The translations under genes and the position numbers were made by a program. Source: Micromonospora sp. WMMA1947 (lineage in GTDB: Bacteria; Actinomycetota; Actinomycetes; Mycobacteriales; Micromonosporaceae). From it: 64,000 nucleotides of DNA. The notes beneath the pieces were generated by a model. The model had not been told where the DNA came from, ran no database searches, and saw only the letters and a list, made by a program, of their open reading frames with translations. The stretch lies in contig NZ_CP114909.1 of NCBI RefSeq assembly GCF_027497355.1, positions 5,351,001 to 5,415,000 of the forward strand, in the 5' to 3' direction. Below, in pieces: positions 2,134 through 22,851 of the stretch (position 1 is the first letter of the stretch; each line of letters begins with the position of its first letter).

Positions 2134-2838
2134 TCACCCGGCCGCGCCCGCGCCCCCGCCGACCGCCGCATCGGACTCCGCCGGTCGCGCCGCGCGCCGA
2201 CGGCGCTTGCGCGGCGGCGGGACCAGCGCCGACAGGTCGCCGCCGGTGTCGTTGAGCCGGACCAGGAACGGCCGGAACGGGGTGTAGCGGATCGCCGTGA
2301 CCGACGCCGGGTCGGCCACGATCCGCTGGAAAAGATCAAGGTGTACGCCGAGCGCGTCCGCCACGATCGCCTTGATCACGTCGCCGTGGCTGCACGCCAG
2401 CCAGATCGCCTCCGGCCCGTGCTCGGCGGTGACCCGCGCGTCCCACGCCCGTACCGCGGCCACGGCGCGCGCGGACATCGCCGCCATGGACTCGCCCTGC
2501 GGGAACGCGGCGGCGCTCGGGTGCTGCTGGACCACCGGCCAGAGCGGCTCCTTCGCCAGCTTCTTCAGCGACTGCCCCTCCCAGTCGCCGTACCCGCACT
2601 CGATCAACCCGTCGTCCACCACCGGTTCCACGCCCGGCAGGGCCAGATCGAGGGTCTGCCGGCAGCGGATGAGTGGGCTGGTCACCACCGCCGCCAGCGG
2701 CAGCCCGGCGAGGCGCGCGCCGACCGCAGCCGCCTGCGCGCGGCCGGTGTCGTCGAGCTCGACCGGTTGCCGCCCGGCCAGGCCGCCGTCGGCGTTCGCG
2801 GTGGTCCGGCCGTGTCGCAGAAGTAGAAGGGTCGCCAC
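2134..2838 (-). CDS. MSMEG_4193-family histidine phosphatase/phosphomutase
   Basis: Histidine phosphatase superfamily (TIGR03848-like). The catalytic LLLLRHGRT lies near the N-terminus, and the second His in ACSHGD about 140 residues later. First gene of the four-gene set leading to mshC. The GTG at 2838 has an AGGGTGG Shine-Dalgarno five bases upstream and gives the expected short N-terminus; a GTG at 2847 is the alternative. The C-terminal ~35 residues are a basic then Ala/Gly-rich tail (RKRRRRAARP...), not part of the fold. The natural phosphoester substrate is unknown. Confidence 0.87.
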   Translation of the reverse strand: MATLLLLRHGRTTANADGGLAGRQPVELDDTGRAQAAAVGARLAGLPLAAVVTSPLIRCRQTLDLALPGVEPVVDDGLIECGYGDWEGQSLKKLAKEPLWPVVQQHPSAAAFPQGESMAAMSARAVAAVRAWDARVTAEHGPEAIWLACSHGDVIKAIVADALGVHLDLFQRIVADPASVTAIRYTPFRPFLVRLNDTGGDLSALVPPPRKRRRRAARPAESDAAVGGGAGAAG

Positions 2839-2911
2839 GCTGACCACCCTAGGCGGTACGCCCCTCGGATGATCGTCCCGCCACGACAGGCCGCGTTCCG
2901 GTGGTGTGGCC

Positions 2912-3532
2912 CTACTCCCGGTACACCCATCTGCGGAACCTGTCGGCCGCGTCCGACGCGCCGTCGGGCTCCGCCAGGGACCGCAGGGACCGCAGCGATG
3001 CCCGGTGCCGCCGGACCAGGAGCGCGACCCAGACGACCACCACCGCCCACAGCACCAGAGAGATGCTGCGGTACCGCCTGACCGCCGCGTCGGTCCGTGC
3101 CTCGGCCTCCGCCCTGACCTGGAACGCGTCGTAGATCACGGTGCCGTCGACGACGAAGGTCTCGGCTGTGACCCGGTAGGTCGCGTAGTCGTACAACCGT
3201 GCGCGCTCCAGATCCGGCCGGGGATCCCTGCTCATCTCGAATCGGACCGGCGTGCCGGGCATCAGTTCCTCGCGAGGCACCTCTCGTACGCTGAACTCGA
3301 CCCGGGGGTGCTCGCGGAGCAGCACCCGATGGACCACGACGCCGAGGTTTCTGCTTCCCCCCGTCGTCTTTTCCAAGGTCTCCCGTACCGAGTCGACTGT
3401 GCCCGTCACCACGAACATCTCCGCCGGCAGTTCCGGCTTGTCGAAAGGCTCAGCCAGGTTCCACACAAAGGCCGCCAGAATGCCGATCATCACGGGAACG
3501 CCGTACAACGGTTTGAGGCGGAAGCGCGACAT
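2912..3532 (-). CDS. Hypothetical two-pass membrane protein
   Basis: Not recognised. 206 residues with a hydrophobic segment near the N-terminus (about residues 9-27, YGVPVMIGILAAFVWNL) and another about residues 155-175 (SISLVLWAVVVVWVALLV). The ~120 residues between them are predicted extracytoplasmic, with a basic cytoplasmic tail. The ATG at 3532 places the first membrane helix at a normal distance; GTG codons just upstream are alternatives. It is a lone gene, separated from uppP by a strong hairpin. The topology resembles DUF3592-type membrane proteins, but I cannot assign it. Confidence 0.7.
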   Translation of the reverse strand: MSRFRLKPLYGVPVMIGILAAFVWNLAEPFDKPELPAEMFVVTGTVDSVRETLEKTTGGSRNLGVVVHRVLLREHPRVEFSVREVPREELMPGTPVRFEMSRDPRPDLERARLYDYATYRVTAETFVVDGTVIYDAFQVRAEAEARTDAAVRRYRSISLVLWAVVVVWVALLVRRHRASLRSLRSLAEPDGASDAADRFRRWVYRE

Positions 3533-3621
3533 GCGGGTGACAGTAACCACCCCCGGCCACCGGGCCGCGCCGTCGCACACGCCGCGCGGCCCGACGTGGC
3601 CGGGTGGGCGACGAAGCCGAA

Positions 3622-3654
3622 GGCCGGCCACCTCGGACATCGGGGTGGCCGGCC
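3622..3654 (-). terminator. Hairpin terminator after uppP
   Basis: A perfect 11-bp inverted repeat, GGCCGGCCACC (3622-3632) and its complement (3644-3654), with an 11-nt loop. It lies 16 bases past the uppP stop. No clear U-run, as is common in high-GC actinobacteria. Confidence 0.6.
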
Positions 3655-3669
3655 TCTCGCACGACGACG

Positions 3670-4506
3670 TCAGGTGGCGCTGATCGTGCCGGTCGCCAGC
3701 AGGCAGATCACCAGGCTGCCCAGCGCCACCCGGTACAGCACGAAGACGTACAGCGTGTGGTGGGCGACGTAGCGCAGCAGCCACGCGATGGCCGCGTACC
3801 CGACGGCGAACGCGATGAGCGTCGCGATCACCATCTGCGCCACGCTCGGCGCGGCGGTGCCCGGCGCGGACGGCTCGAACACGTCCGGCAGGCTGAACAA
3901 GCCGGAGATCACCACGGCCGGGATGGCCAGCAGGAACGAGTAGCGGGCCGCGGTCTCCCGGGTGAGGTTGAGCAGCAGGCCCGCGGTCAGGGTGCCGCCG
4001 GACCGGGAGACGCCGGGCACCAGCGCCGCGGCCTGGGCGAAGCCCATCACCACGCCGTCGCGCATCCGGAAGTTCTCCAGCGTACGGGTCTGCCGGCCCC
4101 AGTACTCGGCGAAGGCCAGCAGCATCGCGCCGAGAATCAGCGTGCAGGAGATCAGCCAGAGGTTGCGGCCGGCGGTGCGGATCTGGTCCTTGAAGATCAG
4201 CCCGAAGATGCCGATCGGGATGGTGCCGACGATGACGTACCAGCCCATCCGGTAGTCGAGGCTGGACCGCACCGAGCGGTCGACCAGGCCCACGAACCAG
4301 GTGCGGACGATCCGCCCGATGTCCCTGGCGAAGTAGATCAGCACGGCGGCCTCGGTGCCGAGCTGGGTCACCGCGGTGAACGACGCGCCCGCGTCCCGGT
4401 CGAAGAACAGGGCCGAGGTGATCCGCAGGTGCCCCGACGAGGACACCGGAAGGAACTCGGTCAGCCCCTGGACCAGGCCCAGGACGATGGCCTCGATCCA
4501 GGTCAC
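3670..4506 (-). CDS. uppP: Undecaprenyl-diphosphatase UppP (BacA)
   Basis: Integral membrane phosphatase that recycles undecaprenyl diphosphate to the monophosphate carrier for peptidoglycan synthesis; extra copies give bacitracin resistance. 278 residues, normal length. Family motifs are present: [20 protein letters not shown] near the N-terminus, followed by GHL, and PGVSRSGGT in the second half. Multiple membrane helices. The GTG at 4506 overlaps the stop of the upstream LLM oxidoreductase as GTGA, so translation is coupled. A hairpin follows the stop. Confidence 0.95.
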
Positions 4507-5555: not shown

Positions 5556-5719
5556 TGATCCTCCCACCGTCCGCACCACAGGTCGCATCAGGTTACGCAA
5601 TGAGCGTGGCACCCTCGACGTCCGGCTCACCCCGAACATGTCACACCGGGCGGAGGTCGCGCGGGAACTTGACTGCGGCGAGGATATCCGTGACGCCAGG
5701 TTCGAAATAAGGTTCACGC

Positions 5720-6688
5720 ATGCAACAGCGACCGCTCGGCCGAAGCGGGCTGGCGGTATCGCGGCTCGCGCTCGGCACCATGACCTGGGGACGGGACACC
5801 GACGCCGACGACGCGGCCGCCCAGCTGAAGAGTTACCTCGACGCGGGCGGCAACCTCGTCGACACCGCCGACGTGTACGCCGACGGCGACGCCGAGTCGG
5901 TGATCGGTTCGCTGCTGGGCAGCCTGGTGGACCGCGACGAGCTGCTGATCGCCACCAAGGCGGGCCTGCGGCCGGGCAGCCGCCGCCGGGACGGCTCGCG
6001 CGGGCACCTGCTGCGCACGCTCGACGCCTCGCTGCGCCGGCTCGGCACCGACCACGTCGACCTGTGGCAGGTCCACGGGTACGACCCGGACACCCCGCTG
6101 GAGGAGACGCTCTCGGCCCTGGACCACGCCGTGTCCAGCGGCAAGGCCCGCTACGTGGGTGTGTCGAACTTCTCCGGCTGGCAGACCGCCCGGGCCGCCG
6201 CCTGGCAGGCCGCCTGGCCCGGGCGCGCCCCGGTGGTCGCCGCCCAGGTGGAGTACTCGCTGCTGGAGCGCGGCGTGGAGCGGGAGGTGCTGCCCGCCTG
6301 CGCGGGGATGGGGCTGGGCGTGCTGCCCTGGTCGCCGCTGGGCCGGGGCGTGCTGACCGGCAAGTACCGCAACGGCCGCCCGGCCGACTCGCGGGCGGTG
6401 TCGCCGCACTTCGAGCGGTTCGTCGCGACGTACCTGGAGCCGCGCTGCTCCAGCATCGTGGAGGCGGTCGCCATCGCGGCCGGCGGGCTCGGCGTGTCGC
6501 CGCTGGAGGTGGCGCTGGCCTGGGTGCGGGACCGGCCGGGCGTGACCGCGCCGATCCTCGGCGCGCGCACCGTCGGGCAGCTGCTCGGCGCGTTGCAGGT
6601 GGAGCGGATGACGCTGCCGGAGGAGATCGTCACCGCGCTGGACGACGTGTCCGCGGTGCCGGTGGGCTACCCGGAGCGCGACGGCTGA
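5720..6688 (+). CDS. Aldo/keto reductase
   Basis: NADPH-dependent (beta/alpha)8 oxidoreductase of the AKR superfamily, 322 residues. The catalytic tetrad region is visible: Asp and Tyr in LVDTADVYADG (about residues 47-57), Lys in LLIATKAG, and His in LWQVHGYD. The C-terminal cofactor region (PILGARTVGQL) is intact. Monocistronic in appearance and divergent from the LLM/uppP pair. The substrate cannot be predicted. Confidence 0.92.
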   Translation: MQQRPLGRSGLAVSRLALGTMTWGRDTDADDAAAQLKSYLDAGGNLVDTADVYADGDAESVIGSLLGSLVDRDELLIATKAGLRPGSRRRDGSRGHLLRTLDASLRRLGTDHVDLWQVHGYDPDTPLEETLSALDHAVSSGKARYVGVSNFSGWQTARAAAWQAAWPGRAPVVAAQVEYSLLERGVEREVLPACAGMGLGVLPWSPLGRGVLTGKYRNGRPADSRAVSPHFERFVATYLEPRCSSIVEAVAIAAGGLGVSPLEVALAWVRDRPGVTAPILGARTVGQLLGALQVERMTLPEEIVTALDDVSAVPVGYPERDG

Positions 6689-6757
6689 GCCGCGCGGGGC
6701 GATCCGGGTCACCCGCAGGGGGTGGCGGAGGGCCCCCGACCTGGGCAGCATAGGGGC

Positions 6758-6949
6758 ATGGACTACGAATACGCGCCGCTGCGGTTGCCCTCGAACGTCG
6801 ATCGGCTGACCGCCGCGGCGCAGCTGGCGATCCAGGCCGAGTTCTCCGGCTGGGAGCTGGCCCGGGTGCGGCTCTACCGGGACGGCACGCGGCAGGTGGT
6901 GCTGCGGCGCCGCCTGGTCAACCAGTCGCAGCCGGGCCTGTCGTACTGA
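6758..6949 (+). CDS. DUF5703 family small protein
   Basis: 63-residue protein matching a small conserved actinobacterial family of unknown function. The pattern is MDYEYAPLRLP, then a helix, then GWELARVRLYRDGTRQVVLRRR. It is soluble, with no membrane segment. The ATG at 6758 is used; an upstream in-frame ATG at 6722 would add a low-complexity stretch unlike the family. A strong hairpin follows directly. Confidence 0.8.
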   Translation: MDYEYAPLRLPSNVDRLTAAAQLAIQAEFSGWELARVRLYRDGTRQVVLRRRLVNQSQPGLSY

Positions 6950-6955
6950 CGGGCC

Positions 6956-6995
6956 CGTCCCCGGGGCCGCGCGACGCGGCGCCGCCCCGGGGACG
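6956..6995. terminator. Bidirectional hairpin between convergent genes
   Basis: A 12-bp perfect inverted repeat (CGTCCCCGGGGC at 6956-6967, complement at 6984-6995), 16-nt loop, between the DUF5703 gene and the convergent acidic-protein gene. Confidence 0.65.
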
Positions 6996-7003
6996 CGCAC
7001 GGC

Positions 7004-7657
7004 CTAGTGCGCGTGGTCGTGCTCCTCGTCGAGCTCCATGAACGGGTGCTCGTCGAGCCGGCCGACCAGCCGGTCGTCGGCGGCCGGCTGGAACGGGCCG
7101 ACCGGGTCGTCGTCGTCGAACGACTCCAGGTCGACAGGGGTGCCGACCTCGCTGACCATCACCACACCGTCCAGCGGCTCCAGCTCCGGCACGTCGAGCG
7201 CGGACAGCGAACCGTCGCCGCTCTGCAGCAGCTCCAGCACCGCCTCGCCGACCCCCTCGACCGGCGCCGGCTCGTCCTCCTCCGGGGTGCCCTCCCGGCG
7301 GGCCGCCTCGGCCGCGCGCAGCAGCGCGGCGACGCTCGGCACCCGGTAGTCGCGCCGCTGCCGCACCGAGATCACCCGCGGGTGCGGGTCGGTGGGCTCG
7401 CCGCCCTCCACGGCGCCGAAGCGCTCGTCGGCCTCGTCCGGGTCGATCGACTCCACGTCCCAGGGCGTCACCTCGCCGAACGCGTCGAGCAGCTGCTCGT
7501 CGTAGGCGAACGAGGCGTTGTTCAACGCGACGTACGCCTGCCAGACGGCGTCGTCGTCGATCCGGCCCTGGGCGGCCCGGACGGCGGCCAGGTGGGCGCG
7601 GGCCGCGTCGATCACCCGCTCGAGGGCGGCGTCCAGCTCACCGTGCTGGTCGGTCAT
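7004..7657 (-). CDS. Conserved hypothetical acidic protein
   Basis: Not assigned to a function. 217 residues, strongly acidic. The N-terminal half is helical (about residues 5-70, ALERVIDAARAHLAAV...). The middle has ISVRQRRDYRVPSVAALLRAAEAARR. The C-terminal ~90 residues are rich in Asp/Glu and end in EEHDHAH, a possible metal-binding tail. The ATG at 7657 is preceded by an AAGGGA-type Shine-Dalgarno. Downstream neighbour of an M20 peptidase on the same strand, 61 bases away, so co-transcription is plausible. No signal peptide or membrane segment. Confidence 0.7.
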   Translation of the reverse strand: MTDQHGELDAALERVIDAARAHLAAVRAAQGRIDDDAVWQAYVALNNASFAYDEQLLDAFGEVTPWDVESIDPDEADERFGAVEGGEPTDPHPRVISVRQRRDYRVPSVAALLRAAEAARREGTPEEDEPAPVEGVGEAVLELLQSGDGSLSALDVPELEPLDGVVMVSEVGTPVDLESFDDDDPVGPFQPAADDRLVGRLDEHPFMELDEEHDHAH

Positions 7658-19457: not shown

Positions 19458-19514
19458 CGATCATGAGGTTGGCGGCGCGACACGCCGTCACGCCGCCGGT
19501 CAACCTCATGATCG
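19458..19514. repeat. Intergenic palindrome, CGATCATGAGGTT family, copy 1
   Basis: 57-bp inverted repeat between convergent genes. The left arm CGATCATGAGGTTGGCGGCG (19458-19477) pairs with 19491-19514, where four extra bases (GGTC) interrupt the complement. The same arm occurs at 34133. It probably acts as a terminator but is a repeated family. Confidence 0.75.
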
Positions 19515-19519
19515 TGCCG

Positions 19520-20797
19520 TCAGGCGGGGGTCAGGACGGCCTCCTTCAGCAGGCGGCGGGTCAGGGTCAGGCGGTCGGCGTCGTCGTCCAGGCCGGGCAG
19601 GTCGCCGACCCTCGTCACTTCGCCGGTGAGCAGCGCGCGCAGCGCGGCCTCGCAGGTGCCGGGCAGCGTGAGCGTCCGGTCCGGCACGCGCAGCGTGACC
19701 CGTCCGTCGGCGGCCGGGGTGAGCTGCCAGCGCAGGCCGCCGCGCACCGCGACCTCGCTGTCCGCGCTCAGCCGGGCCAGCGCCTGCGCCTGGGCCAGTG
19801 GCCGGATCGGTGCCGGGCGGGCGGCCGGCCACACCCGGGCACGCAGCCGGCCGGCCACCGCCGCCGGGTCGGCGCGCAGCAGCCAGTCGCGCAGCGCCTC
19901 GACGGTCTCGGTCAGCTCCGGTTCGATCGCGTCCGGGTCGGCCAGGTCGAGCCCGAACGGCAGGCTCGCGCGCAGCCGCGCGTCCTCGGCGGCGAGCGCG
20001 AGCAGCTCCTCGACCACGGCGTACCGGGTCAGCGCCCGGATGCCCACTGTCAGGTGCAGCGAGCTGGACTCCTGCGCCTGGGCGCTGTGCAGCCAGCCGC
20101 GCGGCAGGTAGAGCGCGTCGCCCGGTTCCAGCACCACGTCCAGTTCGGGGCGGCCCTCGGCGGTCGCGGAGACCTCGTCGGCCCGGCCGCCCCAGGGCTG
20201 GCGCTCCAGCGGGTCGGTCAGCACCGGTGGGTGGATCCGCCAGTGCTTGCGTCCGTCCACCTGGAGCACGAACACGTCGTGGGTGTCGTAGTGGGTGGCG
20301 AACCCCTGGCTGCCGGCCGGGGTCAGGTAGGCGTTCACCTGAAGCGGCTGGGCCAGCGCGGTGCCCAGGTCGCGGGCGAAGTCGACGACCGCCGGCCAGG
20401 TGCGGTGCAGACCCTGCAACACCAGCGTCGCACCGTCGGCGTAGAGCGCCAGCACCTTCTCGTCGAGAACCTGGTCGCCGATCTCGGCGCCCGCGCCACC
20501 ACCGCCGGTGTAGCGCGCCGCCGGCACCAGCTGGCCGTCCTTCGCGACCCGCAGGAACGGGGTACGCAGGCCGCGGCGGCTGAGCAGGTCGTCGGCGTCG
20601 GCCGGGCTGAGCAGGTCGGTGAAGCCGTCCGGGTTGGGTAGTTCGGCGGCGCGGGACAGCAGCGGGCTGCGCCCCCAGTGGTCGGCGGCGAACTTGGCCG
20701 GCTCCACTGCCACGCACCGGGCCAGCGCCTCGGTGGCGGAGAGCGGAACCGCCGGGCGGCCGTGGCCACCCGGCGGGTCGACGTGCGTGGTGCTCAT
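19520..20797 (-). CDS. JmjC/cupin_4 2-oxoglutarate oxygenase, putative peptide hydroxylase
   Basis: 425-residue JmjC-fold protein of the ribosomal-oxygenase type (RoxA/MINA53/NO66-like), an Fe(II)/2-oxoglutarate hydroxylase. The Fe triad is visible: HYDTHDVFVLQ supplies H-x-D and PRGWLHSAQ the distal His; KHWRIH carries the likely 2OG-binding Lys. A winged-helix C-terminal domain follows, as in the family. Its ATG lies three bases after the stop of a 100-residue repetitive peptide, so the two are coupled. Related enzymes hydroxylate His or Arg of ribosomal proteins. Here the neighbouring peptide, with one His per repeat, is the natural candidate substrate (inference). Confidence 0.85.
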   Translation of the reverse strand: MSTTHVDPPGGHGRPAVPLSATEALARCVAVEPAKFAADHWGRSPLLSRAAELPNPDGFTDLLSPADADDLLSRRGLRTPFLRVAKDGQLVPAARYTGGGGAGAEIGDQVLDEKVLALYADGATLVLQGLHRTWPAVVDFARDLGTALAQPLQVNAYLTPAGSQGFATHYDTHDVFVLQVDGRKHWRIHPPVLTDPLERQPWGGRADEVSATAEGRPELDVVLEPGDALYLPRGWLHSAQAQESSSLHLTVGIRALTRYAVVEELLALAAEDARLRASLPFGLDLADPDAIEPELTETVEALRDWLLRADPAAVAGRLRARVWPAARPAPIRPLAQAQALARLSADSEVAVRGGLRWQLTPAADGRVTLRVPDRTLTLPGTCEAALRALLTGEVTRVGDLPGLDDDADRLTLTRRLLKEAVLTPA

Positions 20798-20800
20798 GTG

Positions 20801-21103
20801 TCAGGCGCTGCCGTCGGCGCCGCCGTCGTGCTGGCCGGGGGTCGCGCCACCGTCGGCCGGACCCTCGGCGCTGCCGTCCGCGCCACCGTCGTGCTGACCC
20901 GGGGTCGCACCGCCGTCGGCGGGACCCTCGGCGCCGCCGTCCGCGCCACCGTCGTGCTGACCCGGGGTCGCACCGCCGTCGGCGGGACCCTCGGCGCCGC
21001 CGTCCGCGCCACCGTCGTGCTGACCCGGGGTCGCACCGCCGTCGGCCGGGCCCTCGAGGCCGCTGCCGCCGCTGCTCTGGATGTCGTCGTCGTTCAATGC
21101 CAT
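20801..21103 (-). CDS. Repetitive 100-residue peptide, putative JmjC substrate
   Basis: Starts MALNDDDIQSSGGSGL (16 residues, leader-like), then four tandem 21-residue units with core GGATPGQHDGGADG. Units 1-2 end ...DGGA and units 3-4 ...DGSA. Each unit has one His and three Asp; no Cys, Lys, Arg or aromatic residue occurs anywhere in the protein. GGGAG precedes the ATG at 21103. It lies three bases ahead of the JmjC oxygenase, under a SigB/SigF-type promoter. The layout (leader, repeated core, adjacent modifying enzyme) is that of a multi-core ribosomally made modified peptide. A non-secreted intrinsically disordered protein is the alternative. Confidence 0.75.
   Translation of the reverse strand: MALNDDDIQSSGGSGLEGPADGGATPGQHDGGADGGAEGPADGGATPGQHDGGADGGAEGPADGGATPGQHDGGADGSAEGPADGGATPGQHDGGADGSA
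20804..21055 (-). repeat. Four 63-bp tandem repeats inside the peptide gene
   Basis: Units at 20993-21055, 20930-20992, 20867-20929 and 20804-20866 (minus order). The DNA is nearly identical between units, so recent expansion or gene conversion is likely. In-frame, each encodes 21 residues. Confidence 0.9.
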
Positions 21104-21159
21104 GGGTGCTCCCTCGGTGTGCCGCCCCGCGTGGTGCCGGGGTCCGTGTGCAGCGGGTG

Positions 21160-21185
21160 GTACCCCACGCCTGATCTTCTCTAAC
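21160..21185 (-). promoter_or_regulatory. SigB/SigF-type promoter of the repeat-peptide/JmjC operon
   Basis: On the minus strand GTTA (21185-21182), 16 bases, GGGTAC (21165-21160), about 57 bases before the peptide ATG. One mismatch in the -35. Confidence 0.5.
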
Positions 21186-21288
21186 CACACCGTAGACGCC
21201 CGGACGCCGTCGTACGGACGGTTCGCCGGGCAAGCGGCCGGACCGGGCGGATGCCAGGATGGCGGGAGGACGACGCGAGGAGACGCAC

Positions 21289-22032
21289 GTGACGCAGCCG
21301 GAGCCGCTCACCCCGCTGACCGAGGACTGGCAGCGGACGCTCGCCGTGGTGGCCCACCCCGACGACCTGGAGTTCGGCGCCGCCGCCGCGGTGGCCCGGT
21401 GGACCGGGCAGGGCAAGGAGGTCGTGTACTGCCTGCTCACCAGCGGCGAGGCGGGCATCGACGGGATGACGCCGGAGCGCGCCCGCGTGGTGCGCGAAGA
21501 GGAGCAACGCGCCTCCGCCGCCGTGGTCGGGGTGTCGCGGGTCGAGTTCCTCGGCCTGCCCGACGGGCTGCTGGAGTACGGCGTGCCGCTGCGCCGCGCG
21601 ATCGCCGCTGTGGTGCGCCGGCACCGGCCGGACGTGGTGCTGACGAACAACTTCCGGGAGACCTGGGACGGGGCGTACGCGCTGAACCAGGCCGACCACA
21701 TCGCCTGCGGCCGGGCCACGCTGGACGCGGTCCGCGACGCCGGCAACCGGTGGATCTTCCCGGAGCAGCTCACCGACGGCACGCAGCCGTGGTCGCGGGT
21801 CCGCGAGGTGTGGGCGGCCGGGTCGCCGGTGGCCCGGCACGGGGTGGACGTGACGGACACGTTCGACAGGGGCGTCGCGTCGCTGCGGGCGCACGGGGCG
21901 TACCTGAGCGGCCTGGGCGACGGCAGCTTCGACGCCGAGGAGTTCCTGGAGGGCATGGCCCGGCCGGCGGGCAGCCGGCTCGGCGCGCGGTTCGGCGCCA
22001 CGTTCGAGGTCTTCCCGATCAACCTTCAGTAG
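21289..22032 (+). CDS. PIG-L (LmbE-like) deacetylase family protein
   Basis: 247-residue zinc-dependent N-acetylglucosaminyl deacetylase-like protein. The AHPDDLEFG motif (about residues 21-29) gives the zinc-binding His, Asp and catalytic Asp; a later His in NQADHIACG completes the site. The family includes MshB and Mca, but the sequence does not identify which substrate. GTG at 21289 with GAGGAG upstream. It is followed after nine bases by a DUF72 gene. Confidence 0.88.
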   Translation: MTQPEPLTPLTEDWQRTLAVVAHPDDLEFGAAAAVARWTGQGKEVVYCLLTSGEAGIDGMTPERARVVREEEQRASAAVVGVSRVEFLGLPDGLLEYGVPLRRAIAAVVRRHRPDVVLTNNFRETWDGAYALNQADHIACGRATLDAVRDAGNRWIFPEQLTDGTQPWSRVREVWAAGSPVARHGVDVTDTFDRGVASLRAHGAYLSGLGDGSFDAEEFLEGMARPAGSRLGARFGATFEVFPINLQ

Positions 22033-22041
22033 GGCACGGCG

Positions 22042-22851
22042 ATGTTCCTGGTCGGCACGTCGGGCTGGCAGTACCGGGACTGGCGGGAACGGTTCTACCC
22101 GGCCGGGCTGCCGCAGCGGCGCTGGCTGGAGCACTTCGCCGCGCGGTTCGCCACGGTCGAGGTGAACAACGCGTTCTACCGGCTGCCGGAGCGGGACACG
22201 TTCGTCGCGTGGCGGGAGCGTACGCCCGGCGACTTCTGCGTGGCGGTGAAGATGAGCCGCTACCTGACGCACATCAAGCGGCTGCGCGACCCGGCCGAGC
22301 CGGTGGCTCGGTTCCTGGACCGCGCGTCCGGGCTCGGCGACCGGCTCGGGCCGGTACTGGTGCAGCTCCCGCCGACGCTGCGGGCCGACCCGGACGCGCT
22401 GGCCGGCGTGCTGCGCCGGTTCCCCGCCGACGTGCGGGTGGCCGTCGAGCCGCGACATCAGTCGTGGTGGACCGACGACACGAGGCGGGTGCTGGAGCGG
22501 CACCGGGCGGCGCTGGTCTGGGCGGACCGCCTCAGCCGGCCGATCACCCCGCTGTGGCGCACCACCGACTTCGGGTACCTGCGGCTGCACGAGGGGCGGG
22601 CCCGGCCGTGGCCGCGCTACGGGCGGGCCGCGCTGGCCGGCTGGGTGCGCCGGCTGGCCGGGGAGTTCGGTGACGGCGACCCGGCGTACGTCTACTTCAA
22701 CAACGACCCGGGCGGCGCGGCGATCGTCGACGCGGTCGCGTTCGCCGGGCTGGCCCGGCGGGCCGGGCTGCCGGTGTCCCGGACGCCGGCGGCCCGCCCC
22801 GCCGAGGGGGCGGGACGGGCCGGTCCGGTGCCGGATCAGGGAATCATCTGA
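22042..22851 (+). CDS. DUF72 (YecE-like) protein
   Basis: 269-residue TIM-barrel protein of unknown function. Family signatures are FLVGTSGWQYRDWRERFYP at the start, FCVAVKMSRYLTHIKRL, VAVEPRHQSWW and AYVYFNNDPGGAA near the end. In operon with the PIG-L gene. Its last 16 bases overlap the convergent DUF2267 gene. A second, more distant DUF72 copy lies at 23548-24417. Confidence 0.88.
   Translation: MFLVGTSGWQYRDWRERFYPAGLPQRRWLEHFAARFATVEVNNAFYRLPERDTFVAWRERTPGDFCVAVKMSRYLTHIKRLRDPAEPVARFLDRASGLGDRLGPVLVQLPPTLRADPDALAGVLRRFPADVRVAVEPRHQSWWTDDTRRVLERHRAALVWADRLSRPITPLWRTTDFGYLRLHEGRARPWPRYGRAALAGWVRRLAGEFGDGDPAYVYFNNDPGGAAIVDAVAFAGLARRAGLPVSRTPAARPAEGAGRAGPVPDQGII

Follow-up and report, generated by a model that had tools for sequence, protein, structure and literature searches.

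A stretch of 64,000 nucleotides from Micromonospora sp. WMMA1947 (contig NZ_CP114909.1, positions 5,351,001 to 5,415,000; here, the window) carries a pair of genes in which a peptide built of Asp-Gly repeats is encoded directly upstream of a JmjC oxygenase. Genome comparison firmly shows that this pairing is real and conserved across the Actinomycetes. The reading we favor, to which we give about an even chance, is that the locus represents, in the Micromonosporaceae, an actinobacterial operon of old origin and wide distribution, the oxygenase of which hydroxylates the repeat Asp residues to give a metal-binding or stress product. The operon would encode a highly acidic, disordered peptide of Asp-Gly(-Gly-Ala) repeats and a dedicated oxygenase of the NO66 fold, with a Suc_Fer-like protein as the usual third member outside the Micromonosporaceae. 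The pair spans many actinobacterial genera, including Micromonospora, Salinispora, Rhodococcus, Gordonia, and Mycobacterium, and a large bacterial branch of NO66-like oxygenases gains a probable dedicated substrate. The layout of the pair in the window is as follows.

21103–20801, minus strand: gene of the Asp-Gly repeat peptide, 100 residues plus stop; ATG at 21103, TGA at 20803–20801
21056–21103, minus strand: acidic, leader-like start, residues 1–16, MALNDDDIQSSGGSGL; many relatives have a similar start and some do not
20993–21055, minus strand: repeat unit 1, EGPADGGATPGQHDGGADGGA (units 1 to 4 from Tandem Repeats Finder, TRF, and unit comparison)
20930–20992, minus strand: repeat unit 2
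20867–20929, minus strand: repeat unit 3
20804–20866, minus strand: repeat unit 4, 87–89% identical in DNA to units 1 to 3
20797–19520, minus strand: gene of the JmjC/cupin_4 oxygenase, 425 residues, NO66 fold (PF08007; ligands invariant)

In the window, three bases separate the stop codon of the peptide gene from the ATG of the JmjC gene, and the two genes share one reading phase. The coordinates thus bear out a preliminary description, made from the sequence alone, of a 100-residue repeat open reading frame (ORF) lying three bases 5′ of an NO66-type JmjC gene. Elsewhere the spacing varies. Of the 55 named loci measured, with starts picked by script, 15 have a stop codon that overlaps the next start by 1 or 4 bases; these 15 are from Subtercola, Curtobacterium, Cellulomonas, some Actinoplanes, and others. 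The overlaps suggest translational coupling at the junction.

Within the genus, the JmjC query has a match at an expect value (E) of 0.001 in 58 of 61 sampled Micromonospora genomes; the match is a distant paralogue only in G023 and a fragment only in G040. The peptide gene is directly upstream of the JmjC gene in all 30 genus loci fetched, the window included, two of them cut by contig ends. Among the three genomes with no JmjC match, two have the peptide near a contig start and one has neither gene; the peptide is also found in G023 and G040. In three draft assemblies the peptide sits at the start of a contig (G010:C692, G040:C130, and G052:C83). Breaks in these drafts apparently fall in or next to the 63-bp repeats, and their peptide-only contigs are probably assembly effects.

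An association of such peptides with JmjC genes in other genomes, which the preliminary description had set as its own test, was found at the family and class levels. In 81 Micromonosporaceae genomes, the peptide and the JmjC gene occur in exactly the same 40 (Fisher p = 5e-24, not to be taken literally, as the genomes are related). In a class sample of 394 genomes, the peptide is detected in 39 by a hidden Markov model (HMM; E 1e-8 or better), and each of these genomes has a JmjC gene at most 299 bp from it. A phylum sample of 296 genomes gives nine matches, all belonging to the Actinomycetes. Counts for named genomes are based on the best 80 of 217 confirmed loci. The JmjC gene is directly downstream of the peptide in 78 of these, including one gene that is mostly masked (L095) and one in broken frames (L078), and the remaining two loci end at a contig end.

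The reverse test starts from the oxygenase. In the class sample, 69 genomes are JmjC-positive at E 1e-40 or better, and 30 of these have no HMM-positive peptide. The locus of G434, starting at a contig edge, was left out, and the other 29 were read. An Asp-rich peptide is encoded just upstream in 25 of the 29, two being weak or cut (L187 and L188). As a control, 15 Micromonospora regions at distant JmjC-like hits, 14 of them confirmed at E 1e-3, were passed through an Asp-Gly motif filter. No upstream repeat peptide was found by this filter, which caught only long ordinary ORFs; three of the regions were read fully.

No NCBIfam or Pfam family matches the peptide at E up to 1. A protein search finds at least 275 relatives at E up to 10. 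Among the 120 relatives listed, a simple pattern detects two units in 86, 73 are 55–75 residues long, and all that are named by organism are actinobacterial. Some relatives bear the label 'BatC protein', and a literature search on that name led nowhere. Because the uncorrected ratio of nonsynonymous to synonymous differences (pN/pS) is 0.10 (72 pairs among 18 equal-length genes of Micromonospora and near genera, in two length classes), the peptide is, judged by its codons, a real protein under purifying selection, not a chance ORF.

Residues 17–100 of the window peptide form four 21-residue units, each with a single His, and the peptide has no Arg or Lys, as previously described. TRF reports a 63-bp period, 4.1 copies, and 93% matches over 20804–21063. 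The units had been called near identical in DNA, which is so for units 1 to 3 (mutually 95–98%) but not for unit 4. Ongoing expansion, also proposed, is moderately supported: units of one genome are 92% alike and those of the same rank in different genomes 88%, and there are one to four units per locus, counted by a unit pattern in loci of which some are cut by contig ends. Because several Asp and Gly positions are set by the pattern itself, the 100% values at them say nothing about conservation. The leader-like start is present in the window, and an acidic NDDDI/DDDM start is common among the relatives, but it is missing in several branches (MSEQNLEGPADGG...) and is therefore not a strict leader. 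In the Nocardiaceae and Mycobacteriaceae, the peptides share the 21-residue unit, with GGS in place of GGA. Two cases of joined reading frames were seen. In Mycolicibacterium litorale F4 (L148, frame 5641–7455), peptide and JmjC are in one open frame, and in P0097 a one-unit peptide at the start runs into the JmjC N-terminus.

Conservation within the repeats centers on one motif. In 41 aligned two-unit peptides, hand-picked from the listed relatives, the Asp, Gly, and Ala of EGxAD and DGGAD are invariant, and the His is not. The residue before DGGADG (n = 494) is His in 296 cases, Gln in 88, Ala in 65, Arg in 16, Ser in 11, Gly in 10, and another residue in 8. Asp is followed by Gly at 1466 of 1710 Asp residues in 153 distinct peptides, a set with rough start positions and two junk rows (L185 and L190). 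Once these two rows are removed, 151 distinct peptides remain, of which 23 lack His in the part read. Of 615 xGGAD sites, 611 have Asp as x. Several families (L156, L159, L164, and L178) have nearly abandoned the 21-residue unit for (DGGA)n, and more distant repeats are of the forms DADTTDGGD, GDADQGDSDSTQ, and DADSTD (L182, L184, and L192). Asp is retained in every repeat type. As the sole residue so retained, it is the likely target.

The oxygenase matches PF08007 (JmjC_2) at E 1.3e-30, with 106 bits against a cut-off of 22, and has the NO66/MINA53 fold, including its C-terminal part. The iron ligands H169, D171, and H237 and the 2-oxoglutarate (2OG)-binding K184 are invariant in 38 relatives aligned with NO66; by this alignment, the catalytic site is intact. 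The 38 sequences also have invariant Arg residues. The motifs RGLRTPFxR and GAExxDQ are conserved in the oxygenase family and lacking in NO66 in the alignment. NO66 and MINA53 are JmjC His hydroxylases of ribosomal proteins, whereas the oxygenase here is encoded with an Asp-repeat peptide. YcfD/RoxA, the Arg hydroxylase of ribosomal protein L16, is 18% identical to it, and we know of no Asp-repeat partner of that enzyme.

Based on these features, we infer that the oxygenase acts on the peptide, that it targets Asp, and that the product is β-hydroxylated; its location and function are likewise proposed from sequence. A substrate role is argued by the free variation of the peptide except in one motif, together with its strict tie to the enzyme. 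JmjC hydroxylases of the NO66-type branch act at side-chain β carbons, which points to β-hydroxylation here. The Fe(II)/2OG-type oxygenase would bind the repeats and hydroxylate the Asp of the DGG motifs at the β carbon, many per chain. The product would be a disordered protein rich in hydroxy-Asp, metal-binding or stress-protective, and probably intracellular. β-Hydroxy-Asp is a known Fe(III) ligand, so metal binding by a poly-hydroxy-Asp protein is chemically natural, and a stress-protein role fits the promoter (see below). If this is true, peptides are modified at many sites by a JmjC enzyme only, and the product may bind metals.

Several observations weigh against this proposal. The nearest characterized enzymes act on His or Arg, not on Asp. 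In an AlphaFold2 model of a read-through peptide-JmjC fusion, the peptide is disordered (predicted local distance difference test, pLDDT, near 33), and no repeat is placed in the active site. In most versions of the repeat, Asp is no more constant than Gly and Ala. Four of the 68 accounted JmjC loci at E 1e-40 or better have no Asp-repeat peptide (L183, L185, L189, and L190). In 141 upstream regions, even the best match to the IdeR-type iron box consensus has 8 mismatches of 19. Lastly, no common protease or transporter is seen among the neighbors of 80 loci (by clustering) or in the 14 loci read downstream, no dedicated search having been made. With no shared protease or transporter gene in the inspected loci, 'RiPP' (ribosomally synthesized and post-translationally modified peptide), the label of the preliminary description, may be the wrong word; a gene-encoded candidate precursor beside a modifying enzyme, as in RiPP systems, is present.

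His had been the first choice of target, in a RiPP-like system where the NO66-type enzyme acts on the His of GQHDGG. The nearest solved relatives, NO66 and MINA53, being His hydroxylases, and His being the commonest residue before DGGADG, speak for it. But this His is swapped for Q, R, S, A, G, and others, His-free peptides exist, and NO66 has Ser at the place of Gly252, invariant in the H-L-T-x-G stretch of the oxygenase family. Variation at the site rules out His as a universal target, and a His-hydroxylating system is very improbable. The neighboring Asp, previously the second choice, does fit. Oxidation of another repeat residue, for example at the α carbon of Gly or Ala with backbone cleavage or a crosslink, would account for the constancy that Gly and Ala share with Asp in most repeats. 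The DADSTD repeats of L192, with 2% Gly, retain Asp and not Gly, and the chemistry of the JmjC branch is at side-chain β carbons; we regard such oxidation as improbable.

The peptide might not be a substrate at all. It could be an unmodified, stress-induced, disordered protein like the hydrophilins or GsiB, merely co-regulated with a JmjC enzyme that has another substrate, e.g., a ribosomal protein. GsiB of Bacillus is a SigB-dependent hydrophilin with 20-residue repeats; like it, the window peptide has a candidate SigB-type promoter, Gly-rich repeats of 20–21 residues, and predicted disorder. The SigB/F-type element, 33% Gly, a charge of −19, and predicted disorder all suit this explanation, as does the ribosomal oxygenase fold of the enzyme. 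However, GsiB and the hydrophilins are not known to have an oxygenase partner, and the two genes are linked and co-occur too strictly for co-regulation alone to explain. Hydrophilins are defined by more than 6% Gly and a hydrophilicity index greater than 1. The index exceeds 1 in only 39 of 149 peptides, and the window peptide, at 0.89, falls short of this limit. We consider this explanation unlikely. The least probable alternative makes the peptide a regulator, inhibitor, or scaffold of the oxygenase, that is, a decoy of an acidic substrate. A small acidic protein encoded just 5′ of an enzyme with invariant Arg residues would suit such a role, but repeats that vary in number and type around a constant motif are more in keeping with a substrate modified at many sites than with a binding surface. 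A defense system was rejected: PADLOC has no match for either protein.

A stronger form of the Asp-hydroxylation proposal is doubtful. Here most Asp residues of the DGGA repeats would be converted, giving a ribosomally made poly-(β-hydroxyaspartate) protein that chelates iron or another hard metal at many sites inside the cell, or stores it, with Suc_Fer supplying redox equivalents or iron. Its formation would depend on O2, 2OG, and Fe(II). If this were true, the protein would represent both a new class of modified peptide and a metal-binding polymer that is genetically encoded. No iron-regulator box is found upstream, which leaves the metal idea without regulatory support; an iron-regulated operon was rejected on the poor IdeR-type match.

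Related chemistry has been described. BipG of biphenomycin biosynthesis is a JmjC oxygenase that γ-hydroxylates ornithine in a ribosomal precursor peptide (PMC12707348). In description, BipG resembles the proposed action of the window oxygenase. The BipG cluster has several enzymes with a protease and a transporter, whereas the window locus has one oxygenase and a repeat peptide. SmaO/SmaX of a graspetide cluster carry out Asp β-hydroxylation in a ribosomal peptide (PMC13097080). This is the reaction proposed here, but in a graspetide cluster and leading onward to aminomalonate. Both JmjC action on a ribosomal peptide and Asp β-hydroxylation in RiPPs are thus already known. Searches of open-access papers turned up no account of an Asp-Gly repeat protein modified solely by a JmjC enzyme. 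No description of the peptide-JmjC pair was found there either, subscription papers being mostly outside the search, and 'DGGADG' occurs only in an unrelated context. The earlier view that this is not a described RiPP class is supported by these searches of open-access papers.

Outside the Micromonosporaceae, a Suc_Fer-like gene commonly lies 3′ of the JmjC gene. It was found by reading 14 loci and then counted, neighbor clustering having given mostly shadow ORFs. It is present in 32 of the 80 named loci, i.e., in 0 of 42 from the Micromonosporaceae and 32 of 38 others. Further counts are 21 of 27 class loci (L150–L176), 8 of 8 loci fetched for it, and 12 of the 16 loci L177–L192, exactly those with an Asp-rich peptide. 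All three of the proteins scanned match PF06999 at E about 1e-17; we take them to be thioredoxin-like [2Fe-2S] ferredoxins. The genome of the window has no PF06999 match, and loss in the Micromonosporaceae is the simplest reading.

The window also has a candidate promoter:

21186–21161, minus strand: SigB/F-type promoter-like element GGTT-N17-GGGTA, 83 bases 5′ of the peptide ATG

This element resembles the SigB/F-type consensus. The motif GGTT/GTTT-N14-18-GGGTA is found in 64 of 141 distinct upstream regions, versus 0.14% of shuffled ones. It is kept in 26 of 28 genus loci, 23 of 23 named Micromonospora, the one Verrucosispora, 4 of 6 Actinoplanes, 2 of 2 Asanoa, 3 of 3 Williamsia, and 5 other class loci. 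It is absent from Salinispora (0 of 4), Rhodococcus (0 of 10), Gordonia (0 of 3), Cellulomonas (0 of 4), and Subtercola (0 of 6). The SigB/F-type promoter named previously is thus well conserved in Micromonospora but patchy elsewhere, and a stress promoter for the window pair is plausible.

Four loci have a JmjC gene and no Asp-repeat peptide. L183 and L185, of one genus, encode an acidic non-repeat peptide ending DDPEL(A/S)GADL..EDQ..GRGPT(I/V)EPGA, with no Suc_Fer gene in the stretch read. L190 has no peptide upstream of its JmjC gene. In L189 (G682), a Cys-containing, RiPP-like precursor (ORF 1964–2362, MAETKTLKMDEIQVETAPAADPQFLICDPDPSDDCWIVCNPNYCY) precedes a more distant JmjC gene (2347–3729), and a downstream ORF resembles an ABC transporter ATPase by eye. 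L189 is possibly another JmjC-tailored RiPP cluster.

Upstream of the pair in the window are a divergent PIG-L deacetylase gene (21259–22032) and a DUF72 gene (22042–22851). A link of PIG-L to the pair was rejected: a PIG-L gene is present within 6 kb in 13 of 27 Micromonospora loci and 2 of 2 Verrucosispora loci but in none of 51 other named loci. On the other side is one further feature:

19458–19514, no strand: long hairpin, possible two-way terminator (−44 kcal/mol, z −6.7)

This hairpin is near-perfect, has no T run, and lies between the JmjC gene and a convergent gene.
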